Source: Acidobacteriota bacterium | GTDB lineage: Bacteria; Acidobacteriota; Aminicenantia; Aminicenantales; Saccharicenantaceae | NCBI GenBank assembly: GCA_039683095.1 | Contig: JBDKSB010000002.1 | Span: forward strand, 62,001-126,000 | Direction: 5' to 3' | DNA length: 64,000 nt | Shown: piece by piece, positions 8,979 through 43,058 of the stretch | Layout of the letters: every line of letters starts with the position of its first letter | Position numbering within the stretch: position 1 is the first letter of the stretch | Translations under genes and position numbers: made by a program | Notes under the pieces: model-generated | Database searches by the model: none | What the model was told of the DNA's origin: nothing | What the model saw: only the letters and a program-made list of their open reading frames with translations

Positions 8979-10055
8979 ATGGCGCACTTTTCCAGACGGG
9001 AATTCCTCAAGACTGGAGCCGGGGCCGGCGCGGCGGCGCTCATCGCCGCGGGACAGCCCCTCGGCGCGGCCGTCCGGGAGCCGGCCGCCGCGACGCCGGG
9101 CGGGCCGAGGGCCGTGTCCAGCGGCAACGGCATCCGGGCCACGGCCAGGGCCATGGAGATCCTGCGGGCCGGCGGCGATCCGCTCGATGCCGTCATCGCC
9201 GGGGTCAACATCGTCGAGGACGATCCGAACGACATGTCCGTCGGCTACGGCGGCCTGCCCAACGAGGATGGGGTCGTCGAGCTCGACGCTTCGGTCATGT
9301 ACGGGCCGACCCACTCGGCCGGCGCCGTCGCGGCCCTGCGCAACATCAAGAACCCGTCCAAGGTGGCCCGGCTGGTCATGGAGCGGACGGACCATGTCCT
9401 CCTCGTCGGCGAGGGCGCGCTGAAGTTCGCCCGGGCCCACGGCTTCAAAGAGGAGGACCTCCTGACCGAGAAGTCCCGCGAGGCCTGGCTGCTCTGGAAG
9501 GAGACCGTGTCGGACCGGGATTTCTGGTTCCCCCCGCAGTCCCGGAAGATGCCCGAGGCGCTGCGCGCGGTCCTGAACACCCACGGCACGATCAACTGCA
9601 TCGCCGTCGACGCCGCCGGCCGGCTGGCCGGGGTGACGACGACGAGCGGCATGGCCTGGAAGCTGGCCGGGCGGGTCGGCGATTCGCCGATCATCGGCGC
9701 CGGCCTGTACGTCGACAACGAGATCGGGGCCGCCGGCTCGACCGGGCGGGGCGAGGCCAACATCCAGACCTGCGCCAGCTTCCGCATCGTCGACGCCATG
9801 GGACGGGGGATGTCGCCGGAACAGGCCTGCCTCGAGGCCTGCAAGGCCGTCGCCGCCAAGACCAGGCTGGTGCCCCGGCTCTGCGACGACCAAGGGCGCC
9901 CGAAGTTCGGCCTCGATTTCTACGCCCTCAACAAGAAGGGCGAGTTCGGGGCGGCCGGGTTGTTCCAGGGCGGGCGCTACGCCGTCCACGACGGGACCGA
10001 GAACAAGCTCCGCGACGTGGCCTATCTCTACAAGAGCCCCGGCGACGGCCGCTAG
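8979..10055 (+). CDS. Tat-exported N4-glycosylasparaginase-type Ntn hydrolase
   Basis: Ntn-hydrolase of the glycosylasparaginase/isoaspartyl peptidase family, 358 aa. The N-terminus SRREFLKTGAGAGAAALIAAG is a twin-arginine signal with a hydrophobic stretch. The autoprocessing site is in NTHGTINCIAV: cleavage before Thr would expose the nucleophile; the usual Asp of HDT is Gly here. GRVGDSPIIGAGLYVDNEIG is a strong family signature. It would split GlcNAc-Asn bonds or isoaspartyl/asparagine substrates outside the cytoplasm. The ATG at 8979 follows AAGGAGAG. Its TAG stop shares the palindrome CTAG with the stop of the convergent rlpA gene. Confidence 0.88.
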   Translation: MAHFSRREFLKTGAGAGAAALIAAGQPLGAAVREPAAATPGGPRAVSSGNGIRATARAMEILRAGGDPLDAVIAGVNIVEDDPNDMSVGYGGLPNEDGVVELDASVMYGPTHSAGAVAALRNIKNPSKVARLVMERTDHVLLVGEGALKFARAHGFKEEDLLTEKSREAWLLWKETVSDRDFWFPPQSRKMPEALRAVLNTHGTINCIAVDAAGRLAGVTTTSGMAWKLAGRVGDSPIIGAGLYVDNEIGAAGSTGRGEANIQTCASFRIVDAMGRGMSPEQACLEACKAVAAKTRLVPRLCDDQGRPKFGLDFYALNKKGEFGAAGLFQGGRYAVHDGTENKLRDVAYLYKSPGDGR

Positions 10056-10714
10056 GGCCGTTCGCGGATGATGATGACCGGATAACCTTCGCCGGCCAGC
10101 CGCCGGGCCAGGCTGTCGGCGTCGCCGTCCGCGGCCGGGACCCGGACCCGGAAATAGGCGGCGCGGCCGGTCTCGAACCGGCTGACGGTCACGCCCGGAT
10201 AGGAGGCCTCGAGGCGCCGCTTGATCGCGTAGGCGGCCTCCTGGACCGAGAAGGCCCCGACCTGCACCCAGACCGCCGCGGGCGCCGAAGCGGGCCCGGG
10301 CCCGACCGGGGCCTTGAAGCCGCGCAGGACCTCCAGCCGGACGCGGGCCGTGCCCGGCCCGACCAGGGCCAGGACCCGGGCCGCCGCGTAAGACAGGTCG
10401 ATGATCCGGCCCGGGACGAAAGGCCCGCGGTCGTTGATGCGGACGACGACGGAGCGGTCGTTTTCCAGGTTCGTGACCATGACGTAGGTCCCGAAGGGCA
10501 GGCTGTTGTGGGCCGCGGTCAGGTCGTTCATGTCGAAGACCTCGCGGCTCGAGGTCGGCCGGCCATGGTACTCCGGCCCGTACCACGACGCGAGGCCGGT
10601 TTCGACGCCGGGGACCGCGGCGACCCGGGGACGCGCAGCGCAGGCCGCCAGGCCCAGCAAGACGAGGGCCGCCGCGAGCGCGGCCGCCGGTCCGCCGGGC
10701 CTCCGCTCAGGCAA
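10052..10714 (-). CDS. rlpA: RlpA-like lipoprotein with SPOR domain
   Basis: Septal-ring lytic transglycosylase-like outer-membrane lipoprotein, 220 aa. The signal peptide ends in the lipobox LGLAAC. The double-psi beta-barrel domain follows (ASWYGPEYHGRPTSS, LTAAHNSLPFGT, INDRGPF), and a SPOR peptidoglycan-binding domain ends the protein (VWVQVGAFSVQEAAYAIKRRL). It would bind or cut denuded glycan strands at the septum. The start is a TTG at 10714 that overlaps the stop of the upstream LOG gene by 8 nt; no better start is visible before the signal peptide. It is convergent with the glycosylasparaginase gene. Confidence 0.85.
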   Translation of the reverse strand: MPERRPGGPAAALAAALVLLGLAACAARPRVAAVPGVETGLASWYGPEYHGRPTSSREVFDMNDLTAAHNSLPFGTYVMVTNLENDRSVVVRINDRGPFVPGRIIDLSYAAARVLALVGPGTARVRLEVLRGFKAPVGPGPASAPAAVWVQVGAFSVQEAAYAIKRRLEASYPGVTVSRFETGRAAYFRVRVPAADGDADSLARRLAGEGYPVIIIRERP

Positions 10715-36085: not shown

Positions 36086-36850
36086 TTGATCATCGCTATA
36101 ACAAACCAGAAGGGCGGCGTCGGCAAGACCACGACGACGATCAACGTGGCCGCGGCCATCGCTTTGATGGGGAAGAAGGTCCTGGTCATAGACATGGATC
36201 CCCAGGCCCACAGCACCATCTCGCTCGTGCCCGATCCCGGAAAGCATGAGAAGTCCCTTTTTGATGTTCTCATGAACAAGAATGAAAAGTTCGAGGACAT
36301 CATCGTCCGCTCGACCATTCCCGGGCTCGACGTGGCCATCACCAAGATCTCCATGGCCAAGCTCGAGCCTTCTTTAAGCGGCGAATTCGACGCCCACTAC
36401 CGTCTCAAGGACGCGCTCGAGCAGGTCCGGGGCCGCTACCAATACGTTTTCATCGACACCCCGCCCACCCTTGGCCTGATCACGCTCAACGCCCTGGTCG
36501 CGGCCAATTTCATCCTCATCCCGATCCAGTCCTCCTATCTCTGCCTGGAAGGCACGGACGACCTCCTGGAGACGATCGAGAAGGTCAAGCGGATCGCCAA
36601 TCCGCATCTGAAGGTCATGGGCGTGGTCATCACCCTTTACGACAAGAGGACCAACCTGGCCCGCGACGTCGTCGAGCGCATCAAGAACGTGTTCGGCAAC
36701 AAGCTTTTCAAGACCTTTGTTTCGAAGAGCGTCAAGCTCGAAGAGAGCCCCGCTTATAAGGAATCTATCTTCACTTATGCGCCCGAGTCGATCGGGGCGG
36801 AACAATACCGGAAAGTCGCCGAGGAGCTGATGAGCCGTGCAAAAATCTAA
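36086..36850 (+). CDS. parA: ParA/Soj-type partition ATPase
   Basis: 254 aa deviant Walker-A ATPase that moves ParB-DNA complexes for chromosome or plasmid segregation. The signature TNQKGGVGKTTTTINVAAA is at the N-terminus, DMDPQAHST follows (A' motif) and the Walker B is IDTPPTLG. There is no N-terminal DNA-binding extension, so it is of the Soj or type Ib kind. It starts at TTG 36086, with GGAGGGAG 7 nt before; no ATG is available before the ATPase motif. It overlaps parB by 14 nt. Confidence 0.93.
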   Translation: MIIAITNQKGGVGKTTTTINVAAAIALMGKKVLVIDMDPQAHSTISLVPDPGKHEKSLFDVLMNKNEKFEDIIVRSTIPGLDVAITKISMAKLEPSLSGEFDAHYRLKDALEQVRGRYQYVFIDTPPTLGLITLNALVAANFILIPIQSSYLCLEGTDDLLETIEKVKRIANPHLKVMGVVITLYDKRTNLARDVVERIKNVFGNKLFKTFVSKSVKLEESPAYKESIFTYAPESIGAEQYRKVAEELMSRAKI

Positions 36851-37694
36851 GAAATCGGGTCTTCCCATGTCCGTGGCGATGAAGCATGACGGCCATTTCG
36901 TCGATCTGATCTCGGCCCGCTCGCTCGGGCCCAGGATCCGCATGATCCCGGTCGAGAAGATCGACCCGAACCCTCACCAGGCTCGCTGCGAGCTCGGCAA
37001 TATCGAAGAACTCCAGGATTCCATTCGCACCAAGGGCATCCTCGAGCCCATCCTGGTCCGGGCCAAGGGCAGCCGCTTCGAGATCATCGCCGGCGAGCGG
37101 CGCTTCATGGCCTCCCGGAATATCGGCCTTAAGGAGCTGCCCTGCATCGATCTCGAGGTCGAGGACGCCGAAGCCATGGAGATCGCCCTCATCGAGAACC
37201 TCCAGCGCAAGGACCTGGATATCTTCGAGGAGGCCGACGGCCTGCAGGCCCTGGCCGATATCCACGGCTACAACCACGAGCAGATCTCCGAAAAGATAGG
37301 CAAGGCCCGTTCGACCATCACCGAGATACTGTCGATCGCCCGCATACCGCAGAGCGCCAGGGACATAATCCACGAGGCCGGAGGCTTCAGCCGCTCGACG
37401 ATCATCGAGATCGCCAAGCTCAAGGCCGAGGATGACATGGTCAAGTTCGCCCACGACATCGCCGAGCGGCGGCTGACCCGAGAAGACACGCGCGACCTGG
37501 CCAAGTACCTGAAGGGCAAGACGAAGAAGATCAAGTATTACGTCTACAATTTCGTCCCGGAAGACACCGACCGGTTCCGGCTGCGCCTGGAATTCAAGAA
37601 GCAGACGATCTCGAAGCAGGAGATCATCTCCGTCCTGCAGGAGATCATCGAGCAGATCCGGAAAAAGGACGAAAACCCGGCCGTCAAGGATTGA
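36837..37694 (+). CDS. parB: ParB-family partition/DNA-binding protein, divergent
   Basis: 285 aa. The ParB N-terminal nuclease-like/CTPase fold is clear: IRMIPVEKIDPNPHQAR, IIAGERRFMASR (box II GERR) and IENLQRKDLDIFEEADG. The helix-turn-helix is ISEKIGKARSTITEILSIARIP. The second specificity helix (FSRSTIIEIAKL) and the C-terminal ~100 residues differ from chromosomal Spo0J, so the DNA target may not be canonical parS. Start: GTG at 36837 with GAGGAG upstream; the ATG at 36867 lacks a ribosome site. Overlaps parA by 14 nt. Confidence 0.9.
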   Translation: MQKSKKSGLPMSVAMKHDGHFVDLISARSLGPRIRMIPVEKIDPNPHQARCELGNIEELQDSIRTKGILEPILVRAKGSRFEIIAGERRFMASRNIGLKELPCIDLEVEDAEAMEIALIENLQRKDLDIFEEADGLQALADIHGYNHEQISEKIGKARSTITEILSIARIPQSARDIIHEAGGFSRSTIIEIAKLKAEDDMVKFAHDIAERRLTREDTRDLAKYLKGKTKKIKYYVYNFVPEDTDRFRLRLEFKKQTISKQEIISVLQEIIEQIRKKDENPAVKD

Positions 37695-37740: not shown

Positions 37741-37822
37741 CCCGATGTTAGTTGACATAATATACATTATGCGACTCACTATGACGGCCTCGCTTATATC
37801 CAGCCTTATCTTTGACATCCGG

Positions 37823-37875: not shown

Positions 37876-38476
37876 TCCGGCGTTAATTTGGCTGGCTTTT
37901 GCTTCTTGGCGCGCCCTATAGACGCCTCAAGCCATCTATATAAGCGACCAAGCGCGCGCGCCAATCGTCCAATACCCTTAACCGCTGATTTTTGTGAACC
38001 GCCCTCCGCTCCCGGATCGACGCCACATCAGTTGCCGTCTCAGGCTTTTCCTGTGTTCTAGGCGCGCCTCCCGACGGCGGATATCCGGCCCTCCCAGCCT
38101 GCATTCTATTTGGGCGGGATCGAGATTCCCGCAGTTGCCTCCCTTATATTCGGTCCGACCAAGTCCGGTCCAAGAGCCCGGCACCGATCCGCGCGACCTC
38201 TTCGCGCCCAAGATCGTCGCGTTCTGCCCGGGATCCCGCCGGATGGCGGCTTCTCTCCAGCCGTTCCTGAGACACATGCCGGCGTTCGGTTCATGGCGAT
38301 TTCCCGCGGGACGGAATATTCGAGCTGGCCTTTGCCCAAAGCCGCTTTTTCCGGCGGCCTCTCCCCTGTGGCCCGTTTTGTATCTTATTTATTTTGTTAT
38401 AGATAGCACCTTTTAGCCTGTATCCTTTTTATTATCTTATCGTTACAAAGGACTTGCGGACATCCGGCCGCCGCGC

Positions 38477-38492
38477 TGGCACGAATCTTGCT
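38477..38492 (+). promoter_or_regulatory. Sigma-54 (RpoN) promoter of the NHEJ operon
   Basis: TGGCACG-AATC-TTGCT, a full match to the -24/-12 consensus TGGCACG-N4-TTGCW, preceded by C as in the extended consensus. Predicted start about 38503, leaving a leader of about 54 nt to the ATG at 38557, which has GGAAGGAG. The long upstream intergenic region offers room for an enhancer-binding protein. No other TGGCAC in the window that I checked has the matching TTGC. Confidence 0.72.
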
Positions 38493-38556
38493 AAATTATT
38501 TTCGATGACAATTCCCATTCGGGGCGTCCTCGATATGCCCTTGGAAGGAGTCCGTC

Positions 38557-39240
38557 ATGCTTATTGGCATCCTGGGAACCGGAGATGTCGGCCGGACGCT
38601 GGCCGCCGGGCTCGCCACCCGGGGTCACGACGTCATGATCGGGACCCGCGACGTCCAGCGCAAGCTCGGGGAGGAGCCCGCCGATGAGGGTGCGCCGAGC
38701 TTCCATGATTGGCTCGCGGCCCATAAGAAGGTCCGCCTCGGGACGTTCGCCGCGGCCGCCGCCCACGGCGAGCTGCTCTTTAACGCCACGGCCGGCCACG
38801 CCTCGCTCGAAGCCCTGGCCACGGTCCGGCCGGCCGATCTAAGGGACAAGATCCTGATCGACGCGGCCAATGCCCTCGGCCCCTGGAACGAAGGCGGCGC
38901 CATGGAGCTGTTCGTCGTCAACACGGATTCCCTGGCCGAGAGGATCCAGCGGGCCCACCCCGGCCTCAGGGTCGTCAAGGCCCTGAACACGGTCGCGGCC
39001 CACATCATGGCCAACCCCAAGGGGCTGGCCGGCGGCGATCACGACCTTTTCGTAGCCGGCAACGACGCCGAGTCCCGCGAGCGGGTCGCCCATCTCCTCC
39101 GGGAGGAGTTCGGCTGGAAGACGGTCATCGATCTCGGTGACTTGTCGGCGGCCCGCGGGCTGGAGATGATGATCATGGTCTGGCTGAAGATCTGGGCGGC
39201 CCTCGGCTCGTCGGATTTCAATTTCAAGGTCGCTCGCTGA
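38557..39240 (+). CDS. NADPH-dependent F420 reductase-like oxidoreductase
   Basis: 227 aa Rossmann protein of the pfam03807 (NADP oxidoreductase, coenzyme F420-dependent) type. The dinucleotide motif is GILGTGDVGRTLAAGL; DAANALGPW and VKALNTVAAHIM are typical. Many bacterial members are not F420 enzymes, so cofactor and substrate are open. It is first in the operon with Ku (22 bp gap) behind the sigma-54 promoter. The ATG follows GGAAGGAG. Confidence 0.82.
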   Translation: MLIGILGTGDVGRTLAAGLATRGHDVMIGTRDVQRKLGEEPADEGAPSFHDWLAAHKKVRLGTFAAAAAHGELLFNATAGHASLEALATVRPADLRDKILIDAANALGPWNEGGAMELFVVNTDSLAERIQRAHPGLRVVKALNTVAAHIMANPKGLAGGDHDLFVAGNDAESRERVAHLLREEFGWKTVIDLGDLSAARGLEMMIMVWLKIWAALGSSDFNFKVAR

Positions 39241-39262
39241 GGCCGCCCGAAAGAGGCACGCC

Positions 39263-40126
39263 ATGGCCCAAGCCGTCAGAACCGCGAAGACGACGCGAAC
39301 CTCCGTCGTTGGCAAGGCCAAGCCCAAGCCCGCCGACCTTCCGGCCGGACCCCGGCCGTCGTGGCGGGGCCTGGTCAGCTTCGGCCTGGTCAACGTTCCG
39401 GTCAACCTCTACCCGGCCGTCAAGCCCGAGATCCACGGCATGAACTACCTGCGCAAGGACGACCTCTGCCCGATCGCCTATAAGAAGGTCTGCCGGGCCA
39501 CAGGCGAGGAGGTGCCCTTCGAAGACATCGTCAAGGGCTACGAGTACCGCGACGGCGACTATGTCGTCCTCTCCGACGAGGATTTCCGCAAAGCCGACGT
39601 CAGGAAGTCCTCGGCCGTCGAGATCGAGGCCTTCGTCGACGAGGCCGAGATCGATCCCAAGTACGTCGAGAAGCCCTACTACCTGGAGCCGCAGCCCAAG
39701 GCCCAGACGGCCTACGCCCTGTTCCGCGACGCCATGGCCCAGTCGAAGAAGGTCGCCATCGGTCTCTTCGTCCTCCGGGACCGCGAGCACCTGGTCATGC
39801 TCAAGCCCGAGGGCCGGGCCATCCTGCTCGTCCAGCTCCGTTTCGCCGCCTCGCTGCGCACCTCGGCCGGCCTCGACCTGCCTCCGGCCCGCGTCGAGGC
39901 GCCCAAGGCGCAGATGGAGCTGGCCATCGAGCTGGTCAAGAAATTCGCCGGCGAGTTCCGGCCCGAGGCCTACACCGATACCTACGCGGCCCGCCTGCGG
40001 GAGATCATCGCCGCCAAGGCCCGGGGCCGGACCGTCCACGTCCGGGTCGAAGAGGCGCCGCGAGAGACCGAGGTCGAGGACATCATGTCCCGGCTCAAAG
40101 AGAGCCTGGCGGCGACGCGCCACTAG
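39263..40126 (+). CDS. ku: Ku protein, non-homologous end joining
   Basis: 287 aa bacterial Ku, homodimeric ring that binds double-strand ends and recruits LigD. The core starts WRGLVSFGLVNVPVNLYPAV; further family segments are YLRKDDLCPIAYKKVCRATGE, KPYYLEPQ and MELAIELVKKFAGEF. An extra ~30-residue Lys/Arg/Pro-rich N-terminal tail (KTTRTSVVGKAKPKPADLP) precedes the core. 11 bp upstream of ligD. Confidence 0.95.
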   Translation: MAQAVRTAKTTRTSVVGKAKPKPADLPAGPRPSWRGLVSFGLVNVPVNLYPAVKPEIHGMNYLRKDDLCPIAYKKVCRATGEEVPFEDIVKGYEYRDGDYVVLSDEDFRKADVRKSSAVEIEAFVDEAEIDPKYVEKPYYLEPQPKAQTAYALFRDAMAQSKKVAIGLFVLRDREHLVMLKPEGRAILLVQLRFAASLRTSAGLDLPPARVEAPKAQMELAIELVKKFAGEFRPEAYTDTYAARLREIIAAKARGRTVHVRVEEAPRETEVEDIMSRLKESLAATRH

Positions 40127-40137
40127 GACGGCAGGCG

Positions 40138-42624
40138 ATGGCGCTCCAGGAGTACGCGCGCAAGCGGGCTTTAACCCGAACCCCGGAGCCCGCCCCTGCC
40201 AAGCCCGGACGCCCCGGCCCGTCCGGCCGCCTGCGGTTCGTCGTCCACAAGCACCAGGCCCGCCATCTTCACTACGACCTGCGCCTCGAGCACGCCGGGG
40301 TCCTGAAGAGCTGGGCGGTGCCCAAGGGGCCGTCCATGGACCCCCGCGACAAGCGCCTGGCCATCCAGGTCGAGGACCACCCTCTGGCCTACAAGGATTT
40401 CCACGGCCGTATTCCCGAAGGCGAGTACGGGGCCGGCCTGGTCGAGATCTGGGACAAAGGCACCTACGCGCCGGGCCCCGGTCCGGGCGGCGAAACCGGA
40501 CCGGCCGCCGTCGAAGCCGGGCTGGCCAAGGGGCATCTCGACCTCGTCTTCCACGGCCGGAAGCTCACCGGACCGTTCACCCTGATCCATCTGAAGGGCC
40601 GGGGCCCCAAAGACAACCAATGGCTGCTGTTCAGGCGCAAAGAAGCCCCCCGGACTCCCGACGCCGGCGCGCCAACGGAGGCCGACCCACCCGGCCTGAA
40701 GGGCAAAAGATCCGGACGGCCCCCGTCCCTCAAGGCCCTCGGCCTCTTCGACGCGCCCCGAGGGCCGTTCCCGGGCCCGCTCGAGCCCATGCTGGCGACC
40801 CTCGTCGACGCGCCCTTCGACCGTCCGGGCTGGTCCTTCGAGGTCAAGTGGGATGGCTTCCGGGCCCTGGCCGTGACCGAGGCCGGCCGGGTCCGCCTGG
40901 TCTCGCGGAACGGCAAGCCGCTCGACGTGCGCTTCCCGGCGATCGCGGCCGCCCTCGCCGGAACGCCGTCGAACGTTGTCCTCGATGGCGAGATCGTGGC
41001 CGTCGATGACCGAGGCCGGCCGGCCTTCCAGGACCTCCAGAGCGCCCAGCGCGCCGGCGACGGCCGCCTGCGCTACTACGTTTTCGACATCCTCCAGGTC
41101 GGCGGCCGCGACCTGCGGCCCCTGTCGCTCGAGCGCCGGCGGCAGGTCCTGACGAGGTTCTTGCCGGCGTCCCCGGTCGTGCGCTTGAGCGATGCGGTCG
41201 AGGCCCGCGGTCGGGACTTTTTCCGGGCCGCGGCGGCGATCGGCCTCGAAGGCATCGTGGCCAAGGACCTGGCCGCCCCCTATCGGCCGGGCGAACGGAC
41301 CCGGTCCTGGCTCAAGATCAAGGCCCGCCGCCGGCAGGAAGCGGTCATCGGCGGTTTCACCCGGCCCCGGGCCTCGCGGCGATACTTCGGGGCCCTGGTC
41401 CTCGGCGTCTATCGCGGCCGGGACTTCGTCTGCATCGGGCATGTCGGGACGGGTTTCAGCGAAGAGACCCTGAAGGACCTCGACGCCAAGCTGCGACCGC
41501 TCGTCACGAAGACTTCGCCGTTCGCCACGCCGCCCCGGACCAACGAGCCCGTCACCTGGGTCCGGCCGCGGCTCGTCGCCGAGATCGAGTTCGGCGAGTG
41601 GACGGCCGAAGGCCTCCTGCGGCAGCCCGCGTTCCTGGGCCTGCGTGACGACAAGGACCCCCGCCGGGTCGAGCGCGAAGAGGCCGCCCCGGGCCCCTCC
41701 CCCGGCCGGGCGGCGGCGCTCCGGACCCGGGCCGAGCTCGTCCATCTCGACAAGGTCTTTTGGCCCGGGGAAGGCTTCACCAAGGGAGACGTGGTCGATT
41801 ATTACGCCGCGATGGCCGACCGGATCCTCCCCTACCTGAAAGCCCGGCCCCAGGCCCTCAACCGGCATCCGGACGGCATCGCCGGTCCGAGCTTCTTTCA
41901 GAAGAACCTGACCCAGGACCCGCCGCCGTGGGTCCGGACAGTCGAGGTCGCTTCCGAAAGCCGGGGCCGGCCCATCCGGTATCTCGTCTGCGACAACCGC
42001 GACACCCTGCTCTACGAGGCCAATCTGGGCGCGATCGAGATCAACGTCTGGAGCTCGTCCCTGCCTCACCTCGACGCGCCGGACTACGTCGTCCTGGACT
42101 TCGACCCGCTCGAAACCTCGTTCGAGGCCGCGGTCGAGGCCGTCCGGGCGGCCAAGGAGGTCCTCGACGAGATGGGGCTTCCGGCCTACTGCAAGACCTC
42201 CGGGGCCACGGGCCTGCACGTCTACCTCCCGCTCCTGCCCCGGTTCGACTACAACCAGTCACGCGAGCTGGCCCGGCTCATCTGCCTGGTCGTCAACCGG
42301 CGGCATCCCGACCTGACCAGCCTGGAGCGCAGCCCGGGCAAGCGGCGGGGCCGCATCTACCTGGATTACCTGCAGAACCGCAAGGGAGCGACCATGGCCG
42401 CGCCATACGCGCTGCGGCCGGTGCCGGGCGCGACCGTTTCCACGCCGCTCGATTGGCGGGAGGTCACCGCCCGCCTCGACCCCGCGGCCTTCGACATCCG
42501 GACGGTGCCCGAGCGGGCGGCCCGCCGGCGGGACCCGTGGCGGGATTTCTTCAAGGACCGGGTCGACCTGGCCAAGGCCTTGAAAAGGATCGAACGATGG
42601 CGACTCGAAAGCCGCCGGCGGTGA
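40138..42624 (+). CDS. ligD: Multidomain DNA ligase D
   Basis: 828 aa NHEJ enzyme with three domains in the Pseudomonas order. The phosphoesterase covers about 30-170 (VVHKHQARHLHYDLRLEH, PEGEYGAG). The ATP-dependent ligase covers about 212-510, with nucleotidyl lysine K237 in FEVKWDGFRAL and SWLKIKARR near its end. The polymerase/primase covers about 530-820 (VFWPGEGFTKGDVVDYY, metal Asp pair in LDFDPLE, KTSGATGLHVYLPL). It ends within the next gene, which starts 28 nt before the ligD stop. Confidence 0.96.
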   Translation: MALQEYARKRALTRTPEPAPAKPGRPGPSGRLRFVVHKHQARHLHYDLRLEHAGVLKSWAVPKGPSMDPRDKRLAIQVEDHPLAYKDFHGRIPEGEYGAGLVEIWDKGTYAPGPGPGGETGPAAVEAGLAKGHLDLVFHGRKLTGPFTLIHLKGRGPKDNQWLLFRRKEAPRTPDAGAPTEADPPGLKGKRSGRPPSLKALGLFDAPRGPFPGPLEPMLATLVDAPFDRPGWSFEVKWDGFRALAVTEAGRVRLVSRNGKPLDVRFPAIAAALAGTPSNVVLDGEIVAVDDRGRPAFQDLQSAQRAGDGRLRYYVFDILQVGGRDLRPLSLERRRQVLTRFLPASPVVRLSDAVEARGRDFFRAAAAIGLEGIVAKDLAAPYRPGERTRSWLKIKARRRQEAVIGGFTRPRASRRYFGALVLGVYRGRDFVCIGHVGTGFSEETLKDLDAKLRPLVTKTSPFATPPRTNEPVTWVRPRLVAEIEFGEWTAEGLLRQPAFLGLRDDKDPRRVEREEAAPGPSPGRAAALRTRAELVHLDKVFWPGEGFTKGDVVDYYAAMADRILPYLKARPQALNRHPDGIAGPSFFQKNLTQDPPPWVRTVEVASESRGRPIRYLVCDNRDTLLYEANLGAIEINVWSSSLPHLDAPDYVVLDFDPLETSFEAAVEAVRAAKEVLDEMGLPAYCKTSGATGLHVYLPLLPRFDYNQSRELARLICLVVNRRHPDLTSLERSPGKRRGRIYLDYLQNRKGATMAAPYALRPVPGATVSTPLDWREVTARLDPAAFDIRTVPERAARRRDPWRDFFKDRVDLAKALKRIERWRLESRRR

Positions 42625-43058
42625 AGGCCCCGGCCCCTCCGGACGGGCCCGAGACCCAGATCCCGGCGGCGTCCCGTTGGATCAGCCCCAAGAAGCTGGC
42701 CCTCATCCACGTCGTCAAGAAGGAGCTCGGCCTGGCCGATCGCGATTACCGGCGCATCCTCTGGCTCATCGCCGGGGTCCGCAGCGCCAGGGACCTGGAC
42801 GAAGCCGGGTTCCGCAAGCTCATGCGCTATTTCGTCCGCAGCGATTATTTCCGGGCCAACGCCTTCGGCCTGACCCTGAAACAGAAGATGTTCATCAAAT
42901 CGCTCGCCGGCCGGCTCGGCTGGGAGCCGACGCACCTGACGAACTTCATCCGCAAGTATTACCGGCGGCCGGGCCTCGATCACCCGGACCGGAGCGAGGC
43001 CTCCAAGCTGATCGAATCCCTGAAGGCCATCCAGGCCCGCGGATCAGGCCGGCCCTGA
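42597..43058 (+). CDS. DUF1018 / phage Mu gp16 (GemA)-like protein
   Basis: 153 aa. The N-terminal KKLALIHVVKKELGLADRDY with RRILWLIAG and the C-terminal LTLKQKMFIKSLAGRLGW fit the gp16/GemA pattern: a K-x2-IH-x2-KK-x-LGL head and a Q-x-I-x2-L tail. GemA of Mu is an early protein reported to affect host gene expression and DNA topology; the molecular role is unclear. Here it overlaps ligD by 28 nt and no other phage gene is near, so it looks like a resident partner of the NHEJ operon. The ATG is preceded by AAAAGGA. Confidence 0.68.
   Translation: MATRKPPAVKAPAPPDGPETQIPAASRWISPKKLALIHVVKKELGLADRDYRRILWLIAGVRSARDLDEAGFRKLMRYFVRSDYFRANAFGLTLKQKMFIKSLAGRLGWEPTHLTNFIRKYYRRPGLDHPDRSEASKLIESLKAIQARGSGRP

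Follow-up and report, generated by a model that had tools for sequence, protein, structure and literature searches.

The ku-ligD operon and its setting beside dif

We analysed a 64,000-nucleotide stretch of DNA (the window; positions 62001-126000 of contig C2 in genome G000) in which a run of four forward-strand genes includes ku and ligD. Those relatives of the ku locus that carry a name are uncultured Candidatus Aminicenantes MAGs. The first gene (38557-39240, 227 aa) encodes an F420/NADP-oxidoreductase-like protein (Pfam F420_oxidored, 2.5e-10) and is followed by ku (39263-40126, 287 aa; Pfam Ku, 1.2e-44) and ligD (40138-42624, 828 aa), in which Pfam detects all three LigD domains in the order phosphoesterase, ligase and primase/polymerase. 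The fourth gene is gemA-like (DUF1018/GemA; 42597-43058, 153 aa), and its match to the Pfam GemA family PF06252 (1.5e-7) lies above the family cut-off. By gene coordinates, the gaps of 22, 11 and -28 nt reported for this operon in the initial annotation are correct, the last of them being a 28-nt overlap between the start of gemA and the end of ligD. Judged by their domains, the ku and ligD products constitute a Ku-LigD end-joining system with predicted activity, and the oxidoreductase and the GemA-like protein, encoded in the same operon, are possible partners of Ku and LigD.

Upstream of the operon lie parA and parB (36086-37694, forward strand) and, directly downstream of parB, a dif-type XerC/XerD site on the reverse strand (GTCGCATAA-TGTATA-TTATGTCAACT; 37750-37775). 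The dif site stands between parB and the operon promoter and is a neighbour of the operon, not part of it. Chromosomal parAB genes are usually linked to the origin. The family as a whole keeps the order parA-parB-dif, and dif was matched in 31 of 34 family genomes, its two arms of the 11-base type being constant and its 6-base centre variable among relatives. Beyond dif the family varies: this position holds the ku operon in some genomes, nikR together with a cobalt/nickel-type transport block in others, or else unrelated genes; the operon therefore occupies a variable spot beside the chromosomal dif. A dif-using mobile element was considered and rejected. The site is single copy in all but one of the matched genomes (the extra copy has 3 mismatches), and the genome of the window holds one dif copy and no second attachment site, so nothing points to an element integrated there at present. 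A phage or plasmid origin was also rejected: viral contigs contained no GemA or Ku relatives, GemA matches in plasmids and phages were weak, and those of phage records to GemA were in addition only partial.

A sigma-54 site ahead of the operon

A predicted sigma-54 -24/-12 promoter element, TGGCACGAATCTTGCT (TGGCACG-N4-TTGCT), is found at 38477-38492 on the forward strand. It is intergenic, lies 64 nt upstream of the oxidoreductase-like gene and carries correctly spaced GG (-24) and GC (-12) doublets, with transcription predicted to start at about 38502-38504. The initial annotation described it as a full match to the RpoN consensus and the only such site that it found; its sequence and coordinates are as claimed, and in a pattern search no other place in the window matches exactly. 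Five further matches in the window carry 2 mismatches each, a number expected by chance. When the 150 nt that precede the oxidoreductase-like gene were resampled with a Markov model, the exact pattern TGGCAYG-N4-TTGCW appeared in 0 of 20,000 sequences. We found no sigma-70-type promoter-like site between 37700 and 43300.

The sequence around the element offers some candidates for further regulatory features. Immediately 3' of the -12 element, the heptamer AAATTAT (38493-38499, forward strand) is identical in two relatives, G003 and G004. Upstream of the promoter, an AT-rich stretch (38379-38445, forward strand) contains an imperfect 27-nt direct repeat, with copies at 38379-38405 and 38419-38445 that are 40 nt apart and 78% identical, and is a weak candidate for an activator-binding region. 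A TTATTATCTTAT-like AT-rich word recurs upstream of the sigma-54 site in relatives; it is all that their upstream regions share by way of an activator-binding site, and no clear dyad was found in them.

A sigma-54 promoter is inactive unless an activator ATPase fires it, and the initial annotation had made its reading of the site conditional on rpoN and enhancer-binding proteins. Both are encoded in the genome. We identified rpoN with a match of 1e-58 and ten Sigma54_activat matches, nine of which are strong sigma-54 activator ATPases; the sigma-54 contact loop is GAFTGA or GSFTGA in seven activators and a GAFTDA variant in two.

The genome also carries many more such sites than its control predicts. 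TGGCAYG-N4-TTGCW has 17 exact matches genome-wide compared with 1 for the reversed control pattern, and six other genomes of the genus have 71 exact sites compared with 3. Nine of the 17, including 38477-38492, fall outside every long ORF, and almost all of the 17 have an ORF no more than about 200 nt downstream. The genus's other sigma-54 sites are mostly ahead of envelope genes. The ORFs led by them, named by eye, encode a type IV pilin-like protein, carboxypeptidase-regulatory outer-membrane receptors, FecR-like proteins, tryptophan-rich envelope proteins and a protein kinase, and another encodes a secreted helix-hairpin-helix, ComEA-like protein (Pfam HHH_3, 6e-25). The exact site of this last gene (L052; contig C12 of G000, 1194640-1194655) is 29 nt ahead of it, and the same arrangement of site and ComEA-like gene occurs in G010 (L136) and G011 (L119).

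Relatives with and without ku-ligD

The operon also follows parA-parB in G003 and G004, where the site is TGGCATGAATCTTGCT / TGGCATGAATCTTGCTAAATTAT. In G011 the site is GGGCACGAATCTTGCT / GGGCACGAATCTTGCTTAAT, with one consensus mismatch, and lies 48 nt upstream of the oxidoreductase gene. Each of these three sites shares 15 of its 16 bases with the site of the window. The 300 nt upstream, in contrast, align at about 60%, which is the level of resampled sequences. The site is thus kept ahead of the operon in otherwise diverged DNA, so that the conservation check proposed in the initial annotation supports the promoter, and by this comparison of sequences it is a phylogenetic footprint. It is drawn from only about three lineages, as G003 and G004 barely differ in this region. 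A further genome, G010, has the operon with gemA present; its contig opens within the oxidoreductase gene, so that upstream sequence is absent. At the 5' end of this contig (C21; L021, 1-88), an acyl-CoA synthetase-like fragment appears to be fused in frame to the oxidoreductase, possibly as an assembly chimera.

Ku is rare in the class, being present in 4 of 142 genomes, all four in this genus. In a phylum-wide sample of 396 genomes, at least 128 carry Ku and 18 carry GemA. Among the phylum genomes searched, gemA stands beside ku in this genus only, and outside the genus the two genes are not close together in any of the matches listed. At ku loci elsewhere in the phylum taken with 1.5 kb flanks, within which genes beyond ligD could be missed, neither the oxidoreductase nor gemA adjoins ku. 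No credible sigma-54 site was found at 30 other ku loci of the phylum; L099 and L102 give one-mismatch matches. Two additional genomes of the genus have GemA-like genes without ku, at 9634-10056 on the reverse strand of L018 (G014) and at 818-1210 on the forward strand of L019 (G006). Because homologues of the genes around them stand next to dif in G005 and G007, these two GemA-like genes may be linked to dif as well, but their contigs break at this point.

G011 carries a natural deletion. It has removed ku together with almost the whole of ligD, and the promoter, the oxidoreductase gene and gemA are retained. Between the two retained genes lies a ligD remnant (L020, contig C8 of G011; 9897-9971) that matches LigD residues 712-736 and, by eye, also the LigD C-terminus. 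This scar shows that ku-ligD was formerly present and then lost, and did not arrive later. As the promoter persists in G011 without ku and with little left of ligD, we read it as the promoter of the whole operon and not of end joining alone. Its main purpose may be something other than ku-ligD.

Proposed control of the operon and comparison with known systems

In our reading, the element at 38477-38492 very probably works as a sigma-54 (RpoN) promoter from which the oxidoreductase-like gene, ku, ligD and gemA are transcribed as one operon. RpoN-holoenzyme would sit at the site in a closed complex, an AAA+ activator of the genome, bound upstream, would open this complex by ATP hydrolysis, and Ku, LigD and the two co-expressed proteins would then be made together. 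From the sequence we infer a transcription start at the site, one mRNA for the four genes and an activator acting from upstream; ku-ligD may also have internal promoters. The proposal in the initial annotation that end joining is under sigma-54 control holds as a prediction, supported by rpoN, the activators and the footprint. It needs one refinement, in that the promoter does not serve end joining only: the site heads an oxidoreductase gene and is kept in G011.

In a possible but rather unlikely alternative, the sigma-54 promoter is real but is maintained for the oxidoreductase and gemA, and ku-ligD, lying between them, is controlled by position only. The survival in G011 of the promoter and these two genes fits such an arrangement, as does the location of the promoter next to the oxidoreductase in all genomes with upstream sequence. 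However, wherever the sequence is readable, ku and ligD lie in close succession with the genes on either side, and the G011 scar records a loss of ku-ligD and not a later arrival. We think it doubtful that most transcription of the operon comes from a different promoter, by another sigma factor or by read-through, with sigma-54 providing a minor inducible share. There is precedent for other control, in that ku-ligD is under sigma-G in Bacillus subtilis forespores, with late growth also described as a control (according to work cited in PMC5124664), and under the EcfG general stress response in Sphingopyxis (PMC7083833). In the region analysed here, however, a sigma-70-like site was not found, and of the conserved blocks before the oxidoreductase gene the -24/-12 site is the closest to it. 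A functionless chance match to a short consensus is hardly credible and was rejected. Although the reversed control pattern does give about one site per genome, the site here is unique in the window, intergenic and footprinted in diverged DNA, the pattern does not arise on resampling, and these genomes carry rpoN together with a strong excess of such sites at the level of both genome and genus.

Since a sigma-54 promoter is silent without its activator, end joining in these bacteria would respond to a particular signal in place of growth phase, sporulation or general stress, and the timing of error-prone end joining would become testable through one activator. It is also conceivable, as a speculation to which we give little weight, that the sigma-54 programme of the genus couples DNA uptake to end joining through a shared activator or signal. 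The type IV pilin and the ComEA-like protein share their promoter type with ku-ligD, so that, if the two were coupled, cells would join incoming or broken linear DNA while uptake is active; the pilin, ComEA-like and ku-ligD promoters may instead each answer to a different activator.

In the open-access literature we found no report of ku-ligD behind a sigma-54 promoter, which is weak evidence of novelty given that subscription papers were outside the scope of the search. The one paper there that brings together sigma54, LigD and non-homologous end joining has a ku-ligD result on EcfG. In Pseudomonas putida, ligD is listed among the genes affected by c-di-GMP/FleQ in a paper that mentions RpoN and makes no sigma-54 claim for ligD. 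The operon resembles the bacterial Ku-LigD end-joining systems of Mycobacterium, B. subtilis and Pseudomonas in its Ku core domain, three-domain LigD and adjacent genes, and differs from them in the sigma-54 promoter ahead and in the oxidoreductase-like and GemA-like genes that flank ku-ligD in one apparent operon. Its fourth gene matches the Pfam family of GemA (DUF1018) from phage Mu and Mu-like phages but, unlike the Mu-type gene, is chromosomal and sits in an operon without phage genes. With known RpoN promoters that work with AAA+ activators, the site shares an exact consensus, an intergenic position and a genome encoding rpoN and activators, and it differs in having a double-strand-break repair operon as its target, the other sites of this genus being mostly ahead of envelope genes. 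Lastly, the B. subtilis and Sphingopyxis systems likewise place end joining under an alternative sigma factor, but sigma-G and EcfG belong to the sigma-70 family and act without the activator-ATPase step of sigma-54. Every part of the system described here is of a known kind, and it is their combination that appears to be new.
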